A program made the position numbers and the translations under genes. From the NCBI GenBank assembly GCA_021777475.1, contig JAJYDM010000002.1, positions 1 to 64,000 on the forward strand: DNA of 64,000 bases, given 5' to 3'. Below the pieces are notes generated by a model. The model was not told where the DNA came from. It ran no database searches and worked only from the letters and a program-made list of their open reading frames with translations. This stretch comes from Actinomycetes bacterium (lineage in GTDB: Bacteria; Actinomycetota; Acidimicrobiia; Acidimicrobiales; Acidimicrobiaceae). The first letter of the stretch is position 1, and every line of letters begins with the position of its first letter. Below are positions 2,957 to 13,853 of the stretch, piece after piece.

Positions 2957-4522
2957 ATGGCACGTATTTTGGTAACTGAAGAAATTGCCGAATCCGGTCT
3001 CGATCAACTCAGAAAAGCCGGTCACACCGTTGACGTAGCACTGAATCTCACACCCGAACAGCTAATTGCGACAATCCCAGGTGCGCATGCCCTGATAATT
3101 AGGTCCGCCACAAAGGTTATTCCCGCGGTTCTAGATGCCGCAACCGACCTAATTGTGGTGGGAAGGGCCGGAATTGGGCTTGACAACGTGGATGTTCCCT
3201 ACGCCACCAAAAAGGGCGTGATGGTTGTCAACGCACCACAATCCAATATCCTTTCCGCCGCCGAACAAGCTATGGCACTTCTCTTGGCACAGGCGCGGAA
3301 CGTCCCCCAGGCACACACCGCTCTCATAAACGGCAAGTGGGAACGCTCCAAATGGGAAGGCGTAGAGTTGTACGGAAAGACATTGGGGATAATTGGTCTC
3401 GGACGTGTTGGGGCCCTGGTTGCTCAACGGGCCCTGGCCTTCGGTATGCGCCTTATCGCCTATGATCCGTTCGTGTCAAAAGAGCGCGCCCGTCAGATGG
3501 GCGTCGAACTCCTTTCACTCGAAGAAGTCGTAGCACAGTCCGACTTCATCTCCATCCACCTGCCCAAGAGCAAAGAGACCACTGGACTCATCGGTGCCGA
3601 GATGCTGTCAAAAGCAAAGCCTGGCTTGCGAATCATCAACACCGCAAGAGGTGGAATTATTGATGAAAAAGCTCTTTACGATGCGATCAAAACAGGAAGA
3701 GTGCAAGGGGCCGGTCTTGATGTTTTCGAATCCGAGCCGTGCACGGACTCGCCGCTGTTTACCCTGCCATCCATGGTTGTCACTCCGCATCTTGGAGCAT
3801 CCACTTTCGAAGCCCAGGACAAAGCCGGGGTGCAGATCGCAGAGCAGGTGCAGCTGGCCCTCGCTGGTGACTTTGTCCCCTTTGCCGTCAACGTAAACGC
3901 AGCTGAAGCGAGTGAAACCGTAAAGCCTTTCCAAGGGCTGGCCGAGGCGTTGGGCCGCTTCACTGCCTCACTTAACCAATCGTTGCCGGAGCAGCTCAAC
4001 ATCGACTACCAGGGCGCAATAGCTGAGGACGACACTAGAATCCTGACCTTGTCCGTGTTAAAGGGCCTGTTCGGCACTGGAACCAACGAACCGGTTTCCT
4101 ATGTTAATGCTCCACAACTCGCCCAGGATCGCGGTCTTGTCATTAAAGAAAGCACCTCGACCACTGCGAAAGACTACGTGAACCTGATCACACTTAATTC
4201 AGGAAACCACTCGGTTTCCGGTACCCTCACGGGGCCAAAGTTGGAACCGCGAATAGTGATGATCGACGAGCACAAGGTCGAAGTTCCTCCTGCTGCAAAC
4301 ATGCTGATCGTCAGCAATGATGATACGCCTGGCAAAATTGGCATTGTAGCCACAATATTGGGCAACGCGGGGGTGTCGATTTCGTCAATGGCTGTGGGTC
4401 CGTCCGAGCATGGGAATACAGCTCTGATGGTGCTTACCGTCAACACCCAGCTCTCCCGTGAACTCCTGGACGAAATCGCATCTGCACCGGGCATCATCTA
4501 TGCCCATTTGGCTTCGTGCTGA
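2957..4522 (+). CDS. serA: D-3-phosphoglycerate dehydrogenase (SerA), long form with ACT domain
   Basis: Oxidises 3-phosphoglycerate to 3-phosphohydroxypyruvate with NAD+, the first step of serine synthesis. At 521 residues it is the long form with an intervening ASB domain and a C-terminal ACT domain (from about residue 449), as in mycobacteria, where serine is sensed. The NAD motif GLGRVG is at 147-152, followed by NTARGGIID, and the catalytic His is H278 in TPHLGAS. The ATG has a GAGGA site about nine bases upstream. A 217-bp gap separates it from the upstream aminotransferase, and it is followed closely by a DNA methyltransferase gene. Feedback inhibition by serine is inferred from the ACT domain. 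Confidence 0.95.
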   Translation: MARILVTEEIAESGLDQLRKAGHTVDVALNLTPEQLIATIPGAHALIIRSATKVIPAVLDAATDLIVVGRAGIGLDNVDVPYATKKGVMVVNAPQSNILSAAEQAMALLLAQARNVPQAHTALINGKWERSKWEGVELYGKTLGIIGLGRVGALVAQRALAFGMRLIAYDPFVSKERARQMGVELLSLEEVVAQSDFISIHLPKSKETTGLIGAEMLSKAKPGLRIINTARGGIIDEKALYDAIKTGRVQGAGLDVFESEPCTDSPLFTLPSMVVTPHLGASTFEAQDKAGVQIAEQVQLALAGDFVPFAVNVNAAEASETVKPFQGLAEALGRFTASLNQSLPEQLNIDYQGAIAEDDTRILTLSVLKGLFGTGTNEPVSYVNAPQLAQDRGLVIKESTSTTAKDYVNLITLNSGNHSVSGTLTGPKLEPRIVMIDEHKVEVPPAANMLIVSNDDTPGKIGIVATILGNAGVSISSMAVGPSEHGNTALMVLTVNTQLSRELLDEIASAPGIIYAHLASC

Positions 4523-5447: not shown

Positions 5448-5477
5448 TTGACGTATGGCGTGGAAATGCGCCATCAT
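5448..5477 (+). promoter_or_regulatory. Probable leuA leader promoter
   Basis: TTGACG at 5448-5453 and CATCAT at 5472-5477 are separated by 18 bp. A start site six bases later would fall on the GTG at 5484, which is in frame with the leader peptide, so the transcript could be leaderless. The -10 is a 4/6 match only. The parallel with the better ilvB promoter supports the call. Confidence 0.45.
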
Positions 5478-5522
5478 AGAGGCGTGCATATTGTCTTTGC
5501 AACCACTCTCCTTCTTGGATAG
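5466..5522 (+). CDS. leuA leader peptide with a Leu-Leu-Leu run
   Basis: A short ORF reads MRHHRGVHIVFATTLLLG, then TAG. Three consecutive leucine codons (CTC CTT CTT, 5508-5516) sit just before the stop, and two hairpins follow at once: 5523-5547, then an intrinsic terminator. This is the layout of a ribosome-mediated attenuator: scarce charged tRNA-Leu would stall the ribosome over the Leu codons and favour read-through into leuA. There is no good ribosome site before the ATG at 5466. An in-frame GTG at 5484 would give a 12-residue leaderless peptide, matching the 12-residue ilvB leader in this window. Function is inferred. Confidence 0.75.
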   Translation: MRHHRGVHIVFATTLLLG

Positions 5523-5547
5523 CTGCGAGCGTCACCAACGCTCGCAG
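5523..5547 (+). promoter_or_regulatory. leuA leader pause/anti-terminator hairpin
   Basis: A perfect 10-bp stem (5523-5532 with 5538-5547, 5-base loop) begins at the base after the leader-peptide stop codon. A ribosome stalled on the Leu codons would cover its left arm. I could not resolve the exact antiterminator pairing by eye. Confidence 0.65.
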
Positions 5548-5579
5548 AACCTCCTGTGCCTCTGGCCAGGAGGTTTTTT
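5548..5579 (+). terminator. leuA attenuator (intrinsic terminator)
   Basis: The stem AACCTCCTG / CAGGAGGTT (5548-5556 with 5567-5575), with a possible inner GCC/GGC pairing, is followed directly by a run of T to 5579. It lies 78 bp upstream of the leuA start and after the leader peptide. It therefore works as an attenuator, and perhaps also as the end of the upstream transcript. Confidence 0.8.
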
Positions 5580-5656
5580 GTTAGCCCGGATCCGGCTAAA
5601 AGAGAGAAAGTGCAGCCTGATGCACAGTGCGGCATAGAAAGGAAAAGGTAAGCCAG

Positions 5657-7236: not shown

Positions 7237-7926
7237 TCATTCTTGCCGTCTGGCGTCTCGGCTTCCTACCTTCTCAAGTATCCTGCGAAGTTCAAGAAAT
7301 GTGGACAGCACGCTGTTGAGAACCCGTGTCGACTTCTTCACGTCCATTCCAAGATTGCCAAGTACCTCAGAAACAAAATCCCCAATGGAGTCGGCGTTTT
7401 CCATATCCCATAGCGCTTGCTCCAGGCTGAACACCAGAATGTCCCTCGTCAGCTCTTCGTCATCGCTGATGGAATTGTTCTGACCAAAAAGGGAGTGCTG
7501 GACTGAACTGAAAAGCACATCTAATGAAGCGTCGATCGGGTTGATAGTGTCGATCTCGAATTGAGTCGAAGTGATCCTCATACCTGGTTCTATGTAGCGG
7601 ACCTCGGCATTTACATCGTCATCCTCTTCGAGCAATCCATCGCCACACAATGCCTCCCAGCCGTCGGCCACGACCCTCCAGGAAGTGCCGCAGCAGTCGC
7701 AATCAAGCCAGCCCCCATGGTGGACGGCCTCAAGGGCCGGGAAACCATCGGCAATATACCACGGAGGGCAAGCTGGGCAGATATTTCTCTGTATGAGATC
7801 CTCAACGCTCATGGCATCAAGTTCATCAGCCCATCGACGCAGGCCTTCGAGGTCCACCCGGTGCTCTGTACATCTCATGAAAAAAATCTGATCGGAGCCT
7901 ACCTCTCCGAGCTCGGCAATCTTCAT
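7237..7926 (-). CDS. Uncharacterised protein with a Cys-rich putative zinc site
   Basis: I do not recognise this 229-residue protein. It has a CPACPPWY motif and then a CDCCGTSW motif about 35 residues later, a spacing that could bind zinc like a small ribbon. A strongly acidic stretch (LLEEDDDVNAEV) and a helical-looking C-terminal half follow. The ATG at 7926 has a GGGGAG site six bases upstream and is preferred over the in-frame GTG/TTG starts further out. There is no signal peptide or membrane segment. It follows an ABC transporter pair on the same strand but is separated from it by about 120 bp. Confidence 0.6.
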   Translation of the reverse strand: MKIAELGEVGSDQIFFMRCTEHRVDLEGLRRWADELDAMSVEDLIQRNICPACPPWYIADGFPALEAVHHGGWLDCDCCGTSWRVVADGWEALCGDGLLEEDDDVNAEVRYIEPGMRITSTQFEIDTINPIDASLDVLFSSVQHSLFGQNNSISDDEELTRDILVFSLEQALWDMENADSIGDFVSEVLGNLGMDVKKSTRVLNSVLSTFLELRRILEKVGSRDARRQE

Positions 7927-8045
7927 TATCGGCTCCCCGGTCCAACGAGCCCCAGGAACCAATCTGGTTCCATATTCTTAAGGTACATCCATTTGTCAGC
8001 ATATTCGAATCGTTTTTGCAAGATAAATGGTGGGATTTTTCGAGT

Positions 8046-8726
8046 CTACCCAACAAGTTTGTTGTACTGATCCTTCGAGGGCGCTCCCCGGTAGATGGCC
8101 TCGCCCTCTGAAAGGCCAACCATGGAGTTCGCAATCGCCAGAAATTCTTCCGAGTGAGTAGCCACAAGGACCGCAATACCAGTGTTTGCCTGCTCTTTTA
8201 TCTCCTGGATCAGAGAACTCTTCCCCTTCTGATCCAATCCAACAAAAGGCTCGTCAAAAATCAACAACTTGTGAGGCCGGATCAGCGCCATGGCAATTGC
8301 CACCTTTTGCCTAAGCCCGCGGGAAAAGCTGCTCGGAAGGTCGTCCTGGCGGTCAGCCAGCCCAAATACGGCAAGCAACTCTTTGGCCCTGGCCTCCCAA
8401 TCCGCCAGTCCATTTATTCTTGCCGAAAATTCAAGATGCTCAAGTGCGGTGATGTCGTCATAGAGTATTGGTGAATCGAGGGAAACTGAGGTCACGCTCC
8501 TGGCGTCGTCAGACCCGGCCTTTGCGCCAAGAATGGAAATCTCGCCGGTATCGTATCCGACAAGACCCGTCACCGCTCGCACCAGCGTCGTCTTGCCCGA
8601 TCCATTTGGTCCAACCAGGACCGTTATCTCTCCCTCTTTCACCCCGAAAGATACTTCTCTGAGGACTTCGTTCTTCTCATAAGTCTTCGACACCTTTTTT
8701 ACCTCGAGCACGGCACGAGATGCCAT
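8046..8726 (-). CDS. ABC transporter ATP-binding protein
   Basis: A 226-residue ABC ATPase with Walker A GPNGSGKTT at 39-47, the signature region SRGLRQKVAIAMAL and Walker B LLIFDEPFVGLD. The ATG has AAGGAG five bases upstream. It lies 13 bp after the permease gene on the same strand, so the two should form one transporter, probably an exporter because no binding-protein gene is present. The pair sits in one apparent transcript with ilvBNC. The substrate is unknown. Confidence 0.88.
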   Translation of the reverse strand: MASRAVLEVKKVSKTYEKNEVLREVSFGVKEGEITVLVGPNGSGKTTLVRAVTGLVGYDTGEISILGAKAGSDDARSVTSVSLDSPILYDDITALEHLEFSARINGLADWEARAKELLAVFGLADRQDDLPSSFSRGLRQKVAIAMALIRPHKLLIFDEPFVGLDQKGKSSLIQEIKEQANTGIAVLVATHSEEFLAIANSMVGLSEGEAIYRGAPSKDQYNKLVG

Positions 8727-8739
8727 TGCGACTCCTTAC

Positions 8740-10314
8740 CTAGCCATTGGTTAGTGAAAATTCATTACGGCGCCTAATCCACGTCCAGGCGGCGAGCGGA
8801 AAGACCAGGGAAAACGTCCCTGCTGATATCGCAGTTGTATCGACAAGAGCGCTGTTCAGGTCGTGCAGGTTATAGGCATTTACCATCGCCACAAATCCCG
8901 ACGCGACGATGATGAAGGGCAGTATCTCCAGTATCACCGATGTAATTGCGACCACCTCAGGCATCAGCGCGGGTACGCTCGATGTTCTCTGCTTACGCAA
9001 CACGGCCACAGCGGCACCAGCGGTCGATGCCGCTGCCAACGGAATAGCACTTATAAGACCCACATGAACTGCCAATGCAAACCCGCTGAAAATTGACGTT
9101 GCGAGGGTGCCGATTAGCACGAAGACAATCATTCCGATGAATGGTACGAGCAGCAGTCGCGACTCGACCTTTGCCATGGAAACCCCAATTCCAGAAATGG
9201 CATCTGGCCGGTCGGCAAGCTGTGAAAGCGGCTCAAGTAGATCAGTTGCGGCAACATAAAGGGCGACTATCGAGATGGCCAAGGGCAGAAACGATCCTGA
9301 CCACATTAGTCGCGCAGCGAATCCTGCAACTACGGCCAGAACGACGAAGCGCAACAGACGCTCAACAGGCCACCTGAAAAGCGATTCAAGAGACCTCTTT
9401 GAGATGACGGCAGTCAAACCCCGGCCCAGGGAGACTTTGGAAAGAATGGATCGCCCGCCCCTCGATCTTTCGCCTGAAAGCTGCCTTCTCAACAGTATGA
9501 CGGTGCGGATATCACGCATAGTTGCTGCAAATCTGAGCGTGCCAACCAATCGTGCCCTGAATTCGAGCATCTCCAGGGAGAGTCCCGCCGCAAGGTAGAG
9601 TCCCGTCACCAATAGCAGTACAGCGATTCCCACCATTGCAGCGGCCAGCAGCACATCCCTTTGACTAAAGAACAACTCTCCGAGCCATGTACCTGGAAAG
9701 TAAGCCGTGTTGCCGTAGACATCCAGGGCACTCCACAATACAACCAGTCCACCGGCAACCGACGCGACGAACTTGTTAACTCGTACCCCTGAGGCGATAT
9801 ATCCGCTCCCGAAGTAGGTCGTGACACCAATCAGCCCAACCAAAGCTCCCTCGACCACCAGACGTAGAGTTCCAGCACCGAGGGCCCGGTGAGCAATTCC
9901 CCCAACCAGTCCACCAACCAGAATTGCGGGAGGTATAGAAGAGCGTACTTGCGACAAGGCCCTGGATCGGAGAAAGTGCGATCTGGGTACGCCCGATAAA
10001 AGGATCATCCTGACATCGGCTCCCTGCAGCGCAAGCGGACCTCCCCTCGACCCCGACCTGAGTCCAATGAGGACTACCAGGCCAAGGGCCAGGCCAACAT
10101 AAGACGGTCCATACTTGACCACCTCGCGCTGAGCAGCGGACCCCAGCGGAGCAGATTGCAACAAGCCAACCAAAAGGGAGCCGCCCACCAATAGGGCAGC
10201 CCCAACCATATATGCCTTATAAATTGCGTTTATGAGGTCAATTTTCTCGACAAAGTGCTGCCGACGCGCCTTGGATAGATCTCTAAGCGCGCCGACACCG
10301 ATCGGTTGTGTCAT
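8740..10314 (-). CDS. ABC transporter permease, coupled to ilvC
   Basis: A 524-residue polytopic membrane protein with roughly ten or more hydrophobic segments, no signal peptide and low similarity to named permeases that I can recall. Its ATG overlaps the ilvC stop by one base (TGATG), a sign of translational coupling, and the ATPase follows after 13 bp. The gene order ilvB-ilvN-ilvC-permease-ATPase suggests the transporter is made together with branched-chain amino-acid enzymes. Export of an amino acid or a related metabolite is a guess from context only. Confidence 0.8.
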   Translation of the reverse strand: MTQPIGVGALRDLSKARRQHFVEKIDLINAIYKAYMVGAALLVGGSLLVGLLQSAPLGSAAQREVVKYGPSYVGLALGLVVLIGLRSGSRGGPLALQGADVRMILLSGVPRSHFLRSRALSQVRSSIPPAILVGGLVGGIAHRALGAGTLRLVVEGALVGLIGVTTYFGSGYIASGVRVNKFVASVAGGLVVLWSALDVYGNTAYFPGTWLGELFFSQRDVLLAAAMVGIAVLLLVTGLYLAAGLSLEMLEFRARLVGTLRFAATMRDIRTVILLRRQLSGERSRGGRSILSKVSLGRGLTAVISKRSLESLFRWPVERLLRFVVLAVVAGFAARLMWSGSFLPLAISIVALYVAATDLLEPLSQLADRPDAISGIGVSMAKVESRLLLVPFIGMIVFVLIGTLATSIFSGFALAVHVGLISAIPLAAASTAGAAVAVLRKQRTSSVPALMPEVVAITSVILEILPFIIVASGFVAMVNAYNLHDLNSALVDTTAISAGTFSLVFPLAAWTWIRRRNEFSLTNG

Positions 10315-11339
10315 CAGCCGCCTGAAACGTCTTTGAGACCTGGCCTGCCAGATTTCATAAAGGGCATCATTGCCCTCAGTTGAGCGCCTACCGCCTCAAT
10401 CGGATGTGCAGCCGCGGCCTTCCTCAGTTCGTTGAACTTGGGCTGACCATCCTTGTTCTCCTGAACCCAAACCTTGGCAAACTGACCATTTTGGATCTCA
10501 TCAAGCACTTTCTGCATTTCGGCCTTCACGCCGTCGTTGATTATGCGCGGCCCGGTAACCAGACCACCCCATTCAGCAGTCTCTGAAACCGAAAACCACA
10601 TACCCGAAAGACCGTTTTCATAGAGAAGATCCACGATCAACTTGAGTTCGTGCAAACACTCGAAATAAGCGGATTCCGGCTGGTAGCCATTACCCACCAG
10701 AGTCTCGTATCCGGCGGTTACCAATGCTGCCAGACCTCCGCACAAAACAACCTGCTCTCCAAAGAGATCCGTCTCAGTCTCTTCAGCGAAAGTCGTCTCA
10801 AGCACACCTGCACGGGTGGATCCTATCCCGTGGGCATAAGAAAGCGCCACCTGCTTTGCCTTGCCGGTGGCATCCTGAGCCACCGCAATCAAAGATGGAA
10901 TCCCTCCACCTTCGACATAGGTGCGGCGAACCAAATGCCCAGGCCCCTTTGGCGCGATCATAATCACATCCACATCGGGCGACGGCTTGATCTGCTCGTA
11001 ACGGATATTGAATCCGTGCGCAAATGCGAGTGCAGCCCCCTTTTTCAGGTTGGGCGCGATCTCTGTCTCATAGATTGCTGGCTGAGCGGTGTCAGGTGCC
11101 AGAATCATCACCAGGTCTGCCTGTTTCGTCGCATCTGCGACACTTGCCACCTTGAGCCCAGCATTTTGAGCCTTGGCCCTAGATGACGACCCTTCCTTGA
11201 GTCCAACGATCACATCTACACCAGAATCTGCCAGATTCATCGCGTGCGCATGCCCCTGCGAGCCATACCCTACGATTGCAACCGTTTTGCCATGCAAAAG
11301 TGAAGCGTCAGCATCCGCCTCGTAATACAATATGGCCAT
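10314..11339 (-). CDS. ilvC: Ketol-acid reductoisomerase (IlvC)
   Basis: Class I enzyme (341 residues) that isomerises and reduces 2-acetolactate and 2-aceto-2-hydroxybutyrate with NADPH and Mg2+ in valine/isoleucine synthesis. The N-terminal Rossmann fold shows [10 protein letters not shown], the phosphate-binding GSSSR loop favours NADPH, and the knotted C-terminal domain has [10 protein letters not shown]. The start lies one base past the ilvN stop. It overlaps the downstream permease gene by one base. Expressed from the ilvB leader promoter as ilvBNC. Confidence 0.96.
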
Positions 11340-11340
11340 T

Positions 11341-11925
11341 TCAGCCAGCCCTCCCGGTAGTGTTTTTCAATTTGTTTGATTGACGCTCAAGCTTAGCCAG
11401 AGCCACACGTCCTGTTCTCTGCAGCTCCACAATTCCAAAGCTGGACAAAAGCTCAGAAAAATCATCAAGCTTGCTTGGCTCGCCCGTTGCCAGGACAGTC
11501 AGCTTGTCGACACCCACATCGATAATCTTGCCGTCGAAAAGCGCGACAAGCTCCATGACATGACCACGCGAAGAGATATCGGCATTTACCGTCGCAACCA
11601 ACAACTCGCATTCAACTGAGTCTGCCGGGTCCAGTTCGGATATCTTTATAACATTTATCAGCTTGTGAAGCTGCTTCGTTATCTGCTCCAGAGGGGCCGA
11701 GTCCACATCGACCACGATGGTGATCCGTGAAAACCGGCTGTCGTCAGTTGGAGCGACCGCCAAAGAGAAGATGTTATAGCCTCTCCTCGAGAACAACTGT
11801 GCTATACGGGCAAGCACCCCCGCCCGGTTCTCCACAAGAACCGACAGCACATGGTGGTGAATAACACCTGCATTCTCGGACGCATCTATGTATGACCCGT
11901 TCCCGGGTATGTAAGAAATACTCAT
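11341..11925 (-). CDS. ilvN: Acetolactate synthase small subunit (IlvN/IlvH)
   Basis: Regulatory subunit of acetohydroxyacid synthase, 194 residues. An N-terminal ACT domain starts with [15 protein letters not shown] and the block [16 protein letters not shown], and the ALS_ss C-terminal domain follows. It normally activates the catalytic subunit and gives valine feedback control. The ATG overlaps the ilvB stop (ATGA, four bases), so translation is probably coupled. Confidence 0.95.
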
Positions 11926-13646
11926 ATGCCATTCAAACCTTCCGGGCCCAGAATAATGTTGTCATTGGTGACTCCTGCTGGAACCATAGGAAACACCTTC
12001 TCGCTTGAATCAGTTCGAAACTCGATCACAACCGGGCGGTCATTGATCTCGTTGGCCTTCTCAATCGCCGGCCCAACCTCTTCCGCATTCTCAACTCTGA
12101 ACGACGCGCATCCCATCGCTTCAGCCCACTTGACATAATCTGGCAAGTCGGGTGAAAGGTACACTTCGGAATATCGCTCGCCGTAGAACATCTCCTGCCA
12201 CTGCCGCACCATGCCCAAGTAGGAGTTGTTCAGAAGCGCCACCTTGATGGGAATCCGCTCCATGGACGCGGTCACAAGTTCCTGAGCGGTCATCTGGAAG
12301 CACCCGTCACCATCGATAGCCCAAACTGTGCGGTCCGGCTTTCCAACCTTCGCACCAATGGCAGCAGGTACCGCAAATCCCATTGTTCCCAAGCCACCTG
12401 AATTTATCCAGGTATATGGGTAGTTAAACTTCCAGTACTGAGACGCCCACATCTGGTGCTGGCCGACTCCGGACACCACAATTGTGTCGCTTGGAACAGC
12501 ATCGCGAAGCTTCTCGATCACATACTGGGGTTTGAGCACGCCGGAAAGAGCTGGCTGCTCGTACTTGAGAGGATACTTTTCCTGCCATTGCTTGACGGTC
12601 TTGACCCAGTCGCTGATGTCAGTGCGCTGCTGATACGCATCAGGATCGGCTTTGATGGCCCTGATGATGTCTTCGATTACGCTTCGGCAGTCGCCCACAA
12701 TTGGAACATCCGGACGCCTAAGCTTTCCAAGTTCGGCGGGATCGATGTCGACGTGAATAACCTTGGCACCTGGCGCAAATCCGTCGAGCTTACCGGTGAC
12801 CCTATCATCAAATCGGCTTCCCAGCGCGATCAAGAGATCCGACTTCTGCATGGCGGTCACCGCGGTGTAGTTCCCGTGCATTCCTGGCATTCCAAGACAA
12901 AGAGGATGATCGTCCGGGAAGGCGCCACGGGCCATCAGCGTTGTTACCACTGGGATTCCGGTGATCTCTACCAGCTCGGCTAGAGCTTCCGATCCTCGAG
13001 CGTTCAGCACACCTCCACCGACATAGAAAACAGGCTTGGCCGCCTCGAACAGCATCTTCACTGCCGCCGCAATCATCTTCGAATGGCCACGGGTATTTGG
13101 CTTATAGCCCGGCATATCCACCGAGGTCGGCCAGTACCAATCCATTTCGGCATTGGCAACGTCTTTAGGAAAATCAATCAGAACCGGCCCTGGACGTCCT
13201 GTAGTAGCCACGTGGAAAGCTTCCGCGACCACGTTGGGAATATCATTTGCATCGGTCACCAGCCAGTTGTGCTTAGTGACGCTCATGGTGATACCGGTTG
13301 TGTCAGCCTCTTGAAATGCATCAGATCCGATCAAATTCGTTGCCACCTGTCCGGTGATCACAACGATTGGCACGGAGTCCATGTAAGCATCGGCCAATGG
13401 AGTGACGATGTTTGTGGCAGCCGGACCCGAAGTGACCATGGCAACACCTGGTCTTCCGGTTGCATGAGCATATCCCTCGGCCATATGTCCCGCGCCTTGC
13501 TCATGCCTTACCAGTATGTGCCGAATAGGTGAGTCGATAATGGGGTCATAGACGGGCAGAATAGCACCACCCGGCAGGCCGAACATCACGTCGACGCCCT
13601 GCATTTCCAGACTCTTTATCAAAGCCTGAGCTCCAGTAAGCTTCAT
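11922..13646 (-). CDS. ilvB: Acetolactate synthase large (catalytic) subunit (IlvB)
   Basis: ThDP-dependent acetohydroxyacid synthase, 574 residues, the first common step of valine, leucine and isoleucine synthesis. It has the catalytic glutamate region [16 protein letters not shown], the FAD-binding middle domain, and the ThDP motif from GDGCF to [12 protein letters not shown]. The ATG follows a GGGGAG site. A terminator, a hairpin and a Leu/Val-rich leader peptide precede it, so attenuation by leucine and valine supply is likely. First gene of ilvBNC. Confidence 0.96.
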
Positions 13647-13666
13647 TTCTCACTCCCCGATAAACT

Positions 13667-13689
13667 AAAAAACCTCCCGATTGGGAGGC
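13667..13689 (-). terminator. ilvB attenuator (intrinsic terminator)
   Basis: On the minus strand CCTCCC / GGGAGG (13688-13683 with 13678-13673) with a 4-base loop is followed by six T. It ends about 20 bases before the ilvB start and comes right after the leader peptide and its hairpin. Confidence 0.8.
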
Positions 13690-13694
13690 AAACC

Positions 13695-13725
13695 AGCACA
13701 CGATGTTTTTGTCTCGCCGTGCGCT
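13695..13725 (-). promoter_or_regulatory. ilvB leader hairpin after the leader-peptide stop
   Basis: AGCGCACGG (13725-13717) pairs with CGTGTGCT (13702-13695) including one or two G-U pairs. The stem starts inside the leader-peptide stop codon, the same position as the first hairpin of the leuA leader. Confidence 0.6.
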
Positions 13726-13762
13726 ATTCGAAAACTACTACCACCAACAGACTGTTACTCAT
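13724..13762 (-). CDS. ilvB leader peptide (MSNSLLVVVVFE)
   Basis: A 12-residue ORF, MSNSLLVVVVFE then TAG, with two leucine codons followed by four valine codons. It sits between a good promoter and two hairpins before ilvB. Ribosome stalling at Leu/Val codons when charged tRNAs are short would couple ilvBNC expression to branched-chain amino-acid supply. No ribosome site precedes it; the promoter geometry places transcription start at or one base before its ATG. Attenuation is inferred, but the run of codons specific to the pathway products is direct evidence. Confidence 0.85.
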   Translation of the reverse strand: MSNSLLVVVVFE

Positions 13763-13770
13763 TGCAATTA

Positions 13771-13799
13771 ACAATAGGGCAAATCTTGCCGACTGCCAA
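13771..13799 (-). promoter_or_regulatory. ilvBNC promoter
   Basis: TTGGCA (-35, 13799-13794), a 17-bp spacer and TATTGT (-10, 13776-13771). The leader ATG begins eight bases after the -10, so the leader mRNA is probably leaderless. Confidence 0.7.
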
Positions 13800-13816
13800 A
13801 TGAATTTATCGACTTT

Positions 13817-13853
13817 TTGTGGAAAATGGTGATTTCGCCACCATTTTCCACAA
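13817..13853. terminator. 15-bp perfect inverted repeat after ilvD
   Basis: Arms 13817-13831 and 13839-13853 are perfectly complementary with a 7-base loop, between the ilvD stop and the ilvB promoter. It probably ends ilvD transcription and insulates ilvBNC. A clear T run is missing on the minus strand. Confidence 0.6.

Follow-up and report, generated by a model that had tools for sequence, protein, structure and literature searches.

A conserved candidate ribosome-mediated attenuator with GTA-biased valine codons before ilvBNC in Acidimicrobiia

The window analysed here is a stretch of 64,000 nucleotides from a member of the Acidimicrobiaceae. Its minus strand carries an operon for the synthesis of branched-chain amino acids (BCAA). 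Above curated cut-offs, the products of the operon are the large subunit of acetolactate synthase (ilvB, PRK07789/TIGR00118), its small subunit (ilvN, PRK11895/TIGR00119) and ketol-acid reductoisomerase (ilvC, PRK05479/TIGR00465). On the same strand, the region 13799-13644, which leads into the operon, holds in this order a promoter, a short open reading frame (ORF), a hairpin (P1), an intrinsic terminator (T) and the start of ilvB. The ilvD gene lies upstream of the leader on the same strand. The features are as follows.

10314 to 13646, minus strand: the ilvB-ilvN-ilvC operon (ilvB 13646-11922, ilvN 11925-11341, ilvC 11339-10314)
13644 to 13658, minus strand: start codon of ilvB (ATG 13646-13644) and its Shine-Dalgarno sequence (GGGGAG 13658-13653)
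13667 to 13689, minus strand: intrinsic terminator T, GCCTCCC-AATC-GGGAGGT and a T-run, kept in all same-genus relatives with sequence
13694 to 13726, minus strand: P1 hairpin, TAGCGCACGG ... CGTGTGCTGG, its 5' arm beginning in the stop codon TAG (13726-13724)
13724 to 13762, minus strand: leader-peptide ORF MSNSLLVVVVFE with its stop codon, predicted to be leaderless; conserved in the genus, with a BCAA run and in-frame GTA order-wide
13771 to 13799, minus strand: promoter of the leader and ilvBNC transcript, with -35 TTGGCA (13799-13794), a 17-nt spacer and -10 TATTGT (13776-13771)
13814 to 13851, minus strand: a separate hairpin and A-run 3' of ilvD, GTGGAAAATGGTG...CACCATTTTCCAC AAAAA, which precedes the leader promoter and is conserved in the genus alignment

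At the other end of the operon, the ORFs at 7240-7962 and 8743-10314 (both minus strand) have no NCBIfam or Pfam match. The second of them may be a permease cotranscribed with ilvBNC, since it overlaps the end of ilvC and an ABC ATPase (8049-8726) comes next.

An earlier note, made from the letters of the window, had proposed an attenuator before ilvBNC. The proposal stands: the promoter, the 12-codon ORF, P1, T and ilvB follow one another, the arrangement is conserved, and P1 and T covary. From the T-run to the ilvB ATG there are 20 nt, a gap that leaves no room for another promoter between T and ilvB. The leader reads ATG AGT AAC AGT CTG TTG GTG GTA GTA GTT TTC GAA TAG (12 codons and a stop), and its candidate control codons are the Leu2-Val4 run CTG TTG GTG GTA GTA GTT, GTA GTA included. 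The note had held that the leader contains codons only for the products of the pathway; the run is indeed all Leu and Val, but the leader also encodes Ser, Asn, Phe and Glu. It had also taken the promoter to fix the start of the transcript at the leader ATG. The pair TTGGCA-17-TATTGT is present and the ATG (13762) lies 8 nt downstream of the -10; from this position we predict a start 0-3 nt before the ATG. The description of a hairpin touching the stop codon, followed by a terminator, was accurate: P1 begins in TAG and is separated from T by a spacer of 4 nt.

The fold of the RNA from leader to ilvB beats 199 of 200 dinucleotide shuffles (z -2.5). When the 64-kb window was scanned for ORFs of 8-20 codons with at least four consecutive I/L/V residues followed by a strict hairpin and T-run, the ilvB leader ORF was the sole match (with two start codons); eight Markov-1 random windows gave none. 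In the whole 2.28-Mb assembly only four sites show the terminator pattern CTCC-N-GGAG-N-T5, and the leaders of ilvB and leuA account for two of them. At these two genes the core of the terminator, CCTCC/GGAGG, is near-invariant, more than pairing demands (alignment A1, columns 68-73 and 78-84), and is identical to an SD/anti-SD pair.

Conservation of the Leu/Val run among relatives had been set beforehand as a test on which the proposal could fail. We found ilvB in 57 of the 60 relatives searched. All seven same-genus relatives with upstream sequence have the leader, P1 and T; the two hairpins align base by base, and the run is kept in every one, as LLVVVV(I/F)E or LLVVVIE. Across the order, related BCAA runs (LLVVIT, ILVVVT, LVVLLR, VVLVLI and others) precede ilvB together with P1 and T. 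A covariance model, R1, built from 47 order-wide sequences matches the regions upstream of ilvB in 53 of 55 relatives at E<1e-5, members of the building set matching by construction. The remaining two, L040 (G009) and L041 (G046), are weak matches in which the switch has possibly decayed or diverged. The leader of L041, MISAVRRVLH, has few BCAA codons. R1 also recovered true cases (for example, L016, L036 and L042) that had been overlooked while leaders were still defined by a strict pattern for the terminator. Phylum-wide, R1 finds matches in 53 of 296 genomes; of those examined, most lie before ilvB, and leuB or a gene resembling citramalate synthase follows most of the others; one match (L245) has no identified neighbour from the BCAA pathway. 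A search of a plasmid collection with the leader DNA returned no match. Judged by these alignments and searches, the ilvB leader element is real and conserved across its order.

Covariation supports the structure itself. In P1 and T together, both partners have changed in 11 of 14 pairs. Not one of 500 shuffles did as well, and slid structures scored far lower. P1 alone has double changes in all six of its modelled pairs.

How does translation of so short an ORF begin? Of the 48 leaders with a scoring promoter, 39 have a best promoter whose -10 ends 7-11 nt upstream of the leader start; shuffles predict 2.4. Shine-Dalgarno-like sequences precede the ilvB start in 45 of 51 cases. Before the leader ORF they occur in 8 of 58, against 6.4 by chance, so that in these 58 leaders the enterobacterial trp type is not matched in this respect. 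Promoter position and the chance level of Shine-Dalgarno sequences together point to leaderless translation of the leader ORF.

The leader is also constrained in its choice of valine codon. In 58 non-redundant leaders, picked by BCAA run and terminator rather than by codon, in-frame GTA is present in every one. It accounts for 106 of 143 leader Val codons (74%), compared with 5% in ilvB of the same loci. From same-genome ilvB usage 14 would be expected, and the highest count in 20,000 simulations was 30. The bias is confined to the reading frame (106 GTA in frame versus 8 in the other frames), and because the codons beside GTA vary, the constraint is on the codon and not on a longer motif. The genome encodes tRNA-Val with the anticodons TAC, CAC and GAC; decoding of GUA should therefore rely on the UAC isoacceptor. 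The selective-charging theory predicts that the synonymous codon most sensitive to supply serves as the control codon (PMC1183508), and published work lists GUA among the control codons of the ilvBNC leader in Corynebacterium glutamicum (PMC11857589) and marks it as the regulatory codon in that of Mycobacterium tuberculosis ilvB1 (PMC13236596). Some families outside the class have GTC or GTT in place of GTA. In family f42, from another class (L227, L241, L242, L244), the P1-T layout before ilvB is kept and the Val codons are GTC, GTT and GTG, not GTA, so the GTA preference is lineage-specific.

The same design recurs at other operons of the pathway.

5448 to 5580, plus strand: leuA element, with promoter TTGACG/CATCAT, a leader from GTG 5484 (MHIVFATTLLLG, stop codon 5520-5522), P1 (5523-5547) and an abutting terminator (5548-5579)
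G000:C130 about 3480-3620, outside the window (L262, L265): third element, before leuB-ilvE-cimA, with promoter TTGACA/TAAAAT, a leader, P1 and a terminator

The ilvB layout had been described as a copy of the leuA leader, and the leuA homologues agree: of the 30 examined, 29 are preceded by a leader of the LLL type, with P1 at its stop codon and a terminator that abuts P1. The earlier note had counted two copies. The ilvB and leuA elements do match, but the genome holds a third, before leuB-ilvE-cimA (ilvE named by sequence and position, not by family search). Its leader in the source genome ends ..NVTIS (GTA ACT ATT TCT TGA), and its terminator, ACCGGCCAC..GTGGGCGGT, differs in sequence from that of ilvB. 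Eighteen relatives also have this element, with leaders such as ..NVIIIL, ..VVIIS and ..RVIII; GTA is present in 18 of 19 leuB leaders, and ATT makes up 34 of their 40 Ile codons. In other Acidimicrobiia, leaders with Ile runs (..SIIIIR, ..AIIIC, ..AIIIIR), P1 and T stand directly before citramalate synthase (L235, L236, L237). The runs are LLL at leuA, VVVV at ilvB and V-II(I) at leuB-ilvE-cimA. At each operon the run fits the end product, Leu at leuA, Val at ilvB, Val-Ile at leuB-ilvE-cimA and Ile at citramalate synthase. The shared layout of the leuA leader, with its Leu codons, and the third element with its Val-Ile run support the lineage-wide scheme of BCAA regulation that had been suggested. 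No obvious leader was seen on reading the region upstream of leuC. The genome-wide scan for leaders used R1 and the terminator pattern; R1 misses the leuB element in the source genome, and further divergent leaders may therefore exist.

To place a translating ribosome on the leader we assumed a standard footprint, reaching from -15 to +12 relative to the A site. With this footprint, the in silico probability of P1 is 0.95 when the A site holds GTA and 0.00 when it holds the stop codon. When the first GTA is in the A site, the leading edge of the modelled ribosome lies a median of 1 nt from the 5' base of P1; at the stop codon the same ribosome covers 96% of P1's 5' arm. In the model, then, the position of P1 is the geometry of a stall-sensing hairpin. 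Three features that define an attenuator are found here: a conserved ORF with end-product codons, a terminator before the first gene and a P1 fold that, in silico and with the assumed footprint, depends on the position of the ribosome.

T behaves differently from P1. Its core pairs with probability 0.95-1.00 in all three simulated ribosome states, and folding of the leuA leaders likewise leaves T unchanged between states. Because T folds in every simulated state, thermodynamics alone predicts no switch. We looked for conserved pairing with T's 5' arm in ribosome-masked, pseudoknot-free folds in which the 3' arm of T was not yet made, and found none. In these stalled folds no base of the T 5' arm is paired upstream in 51 of 58 leaders; in the other 7 some are. 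Pairing of leader codons with the GGAGG of T, checked by eye, is not conserved. By these pseudoknot-free folds, a classical mutually exclusive antiterminator sharing bases with T is not found. What stays short is the distance between the two hairpins. It is 0-4 nt for 52 of the 58 ilvB leaders and 0-5 nt for each of the 29 leuA and each of the 19 leuB leaders. The distance from T to ilvB, counted from T's 5' side, ranges from 38 to 246 nt.

Attenuator leaders of enterobacteria have a Shine-Dalgarno sequence and overlapping 2:3 and 3:4 hairpins. The element described here shares with the trp, his, leu and ilv attenuators of that group a run of control codons, a hairpin near the stop codon, a terminator before the first gene and biased synonymous control codons (PMC1183508); it differs in that the leader is predicted to be leaderless and the hairpins abut.

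Closer parallels lie among the actinobacteria. Beyond what the earlier note had seen are the GTA bias, the absent mutually exclusive antiterminator, the abutment of P1 and T, and the fact that the ilvB element is of a kind already known at ilvB in this phylum (PMC11857589, PMC13236596, PMC8079986, PMC1262725). It belongs with the leaderless ilvB attenuators of actinobacteria, and ribosome-mediated attenuation has already been shown at ilvB in Corynebacterium and M. tuberculosis. Like ilvBNC of C. glutamicum, it has a leader with BCAA codons (control codons CUU and GUA there) and a terminator-adjacent hairpin before the same operon (PMC11857589). There, the leader has 15 amino acids and is reported to form an anti-antiterminator, H1, and GCC belongs to both the AT hairpin and T; here, most leaders have 10-16 amino acids, and P1 starts in the stop codon and usually has no base in common with T. 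With the Corynebacterium ilvB-II motif (PMC10272879) the comparison was one of described layout. The window has no Rfam match. M. tuberculosis ilvB1 likewise has control codons ('LVVI', GUA included) and a terminator before ilvB (PMC13236596), but a mutually exclusive anti-terminator and terminator are drawn there, whereas the T described here folds, by prediction, whatever the state of the ribosome. Leaderless BCAA leaders of 12-15 amino acids before ilvB and leuA are also described for Streptomyces lividans (ilvL, leuL1 and leuL2; PMC8079986) and among the actinobacterial ilvB leaders of Seliverstov 2005 (PMC1262725); unlike the elements here, one leucine leader of Streptomyces is without a typical terminator. 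Actinobacterial leuA has been described with a LEU pseudoknot; in Acidimicrobiia leuA has the ilvB-type P1-T layout instead. Among the papers searched, none joins Acidimicrobiia with attenuation and a leader peptide.

We conclude that the element very probably controls ilvBNC by ribosome-mediated transcription attenuation and senses the charging of tRNA-Val (and tRNA-Leu), above all of the GUA-reading tRNA-Val. Transcription would begin at the leader ATG or slightly ahead of it, and the leader would be translated without a Shine-Dalgarno sequence. With ample charged tRNA, the ribosome would reach the stop codon and mask the 5' arm of P1; T would then fold and RNA polymerase would halt 20 nt ahead of ilvB. 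Under scarcity of charged tRNA-Val, the ribosome would stall once GTA enters the A site, and its leading edge would not quite reach P1. That hairpin could then fold flush against T, T would fail and ilvBNC would be transcribed. That scarcity leads to read-through is proposed by analogy with ilvB of C. glutamicum and M. tuberculosis, where, in the latter, stalling gives read-through in reporter experiments. In C. glutamicum transcription of ilvBNC begins 1 nt upstream of the leader ATG and a Val-to-Ala change abolishes the response, according to PMC11857589, which cites Morbach 2000 for this; in M. tuberculosis expression is low and drug-independent once 'AAAA' replaces 'LVVI' (PMC13236596). 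Counting against the reading, changes to leader codons are said to be without effect at S. coelicolor ilvB, in work cited in PMC1262725.

Two other explanations can be set aside: that T does no more than end the ilvD unit or a small RNA, beside a non-regulatory ORF, is highly improbable, for although ilvD lies just upstream on the same strand, it has its own hairpin (13851-13814) before the conserved promoter, T is only 20 nt from ilvB and the leader codons are under strong in-frame selection; and a T-box, ppGpp riboswitch or protein-binding leader, such as control ilv or leu genes in other bacteria, is hardly to be credited, no Rfam 15 family reaching its gathering score and nothing credible appearing up to E=10.

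How could a stalled ribosome stop T from forming if T competes with nothing? Our tentative proposal, which we consider quite possible, is that P1 acts by abutting T and sterically prevents its basal pairs from closing, and not by mutually exclusive pairing. A helix flush with the base of T should hinder the closing of its last pairs. These pairs are reported to be essential for termination, and a ribosome 5 bp away lowers termination from about 90% to <10%, with no such drop at 28 bp (PMC4824070). One result from C. glutamicum counts against abutment alone: changing the leader ATG to AGG lowers expression by 80% (PMC11857589), whereas abutment alone predicts read-through without translation.

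It is also possible, if somewhat doubtful, that the same attenuator works by classical mutual exclusion, an extended or kinetic P1, or a pseudoknot, taking bases of T's 5' arm. This has been proposed for the boundary GCC of C. glutamicum, where the AT and T hairpins are adjacent and have GCC in common (PMC11857589), and in the model drawn for M. tuberculosis the hairpins exclude each other (PMC13236596). The seven leaders with some upstream pairing of the T 5' arm agree with it; the 51 stalled folds in which that arm is free, the near-complete pairing of T in all states and the unchanged T of leuA do not. An unlikely reading makes P1 mainly a pause hairpin that holds polymerase at T, like trp 1:2, the difference between starved and fed cells coming from ribosome-polymerase coupling. 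The 3' base of P1 lies about 10-12 nt before the apex of T (a spacer of 0-4 nt and an arm of 7-11 nt), which fits hairpin-stabilised pausing, and proximity of a ribosome does alter termination (PMC4824070). Such pausing, however, needs an extra step for starvation to raise read-through, and the distance from stop codon to T puts T outside the shadow of the ribosome in fed cells.

With these findings, ribosome-mediated attenuation of BCAA operons reaches a class that is largely uncultured and whose leaders are predicted to be leaderless, and about 105 natural variants at three operons become available. The variants expose constraints beyond the reach of single-species work: the near-fixed GUA (74% versus 5%) and the 0-5-nt spacing of hairpins that share no bases. 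The first tests, in nature, what selective-charging theory says about the choice of control codons (PMC1183508); the second suggests an alternative to mutually exclusive pairing. For specialists, the interest lies in the fixation of GTA, the three-operon scheme and the geometry of abutting hairpins. Taken as a whole, and with some doubt, BCAA synthesis in Acidimicrobiia may be under a set of leaderless attenuators, with Leu codons at leuA, Val at ilvBNC and Val-Ile at leuB-ilvE-cimA, that would use steric, pairing-independent antitermination and would be tuned by a rare, near-fixed GUA codon.
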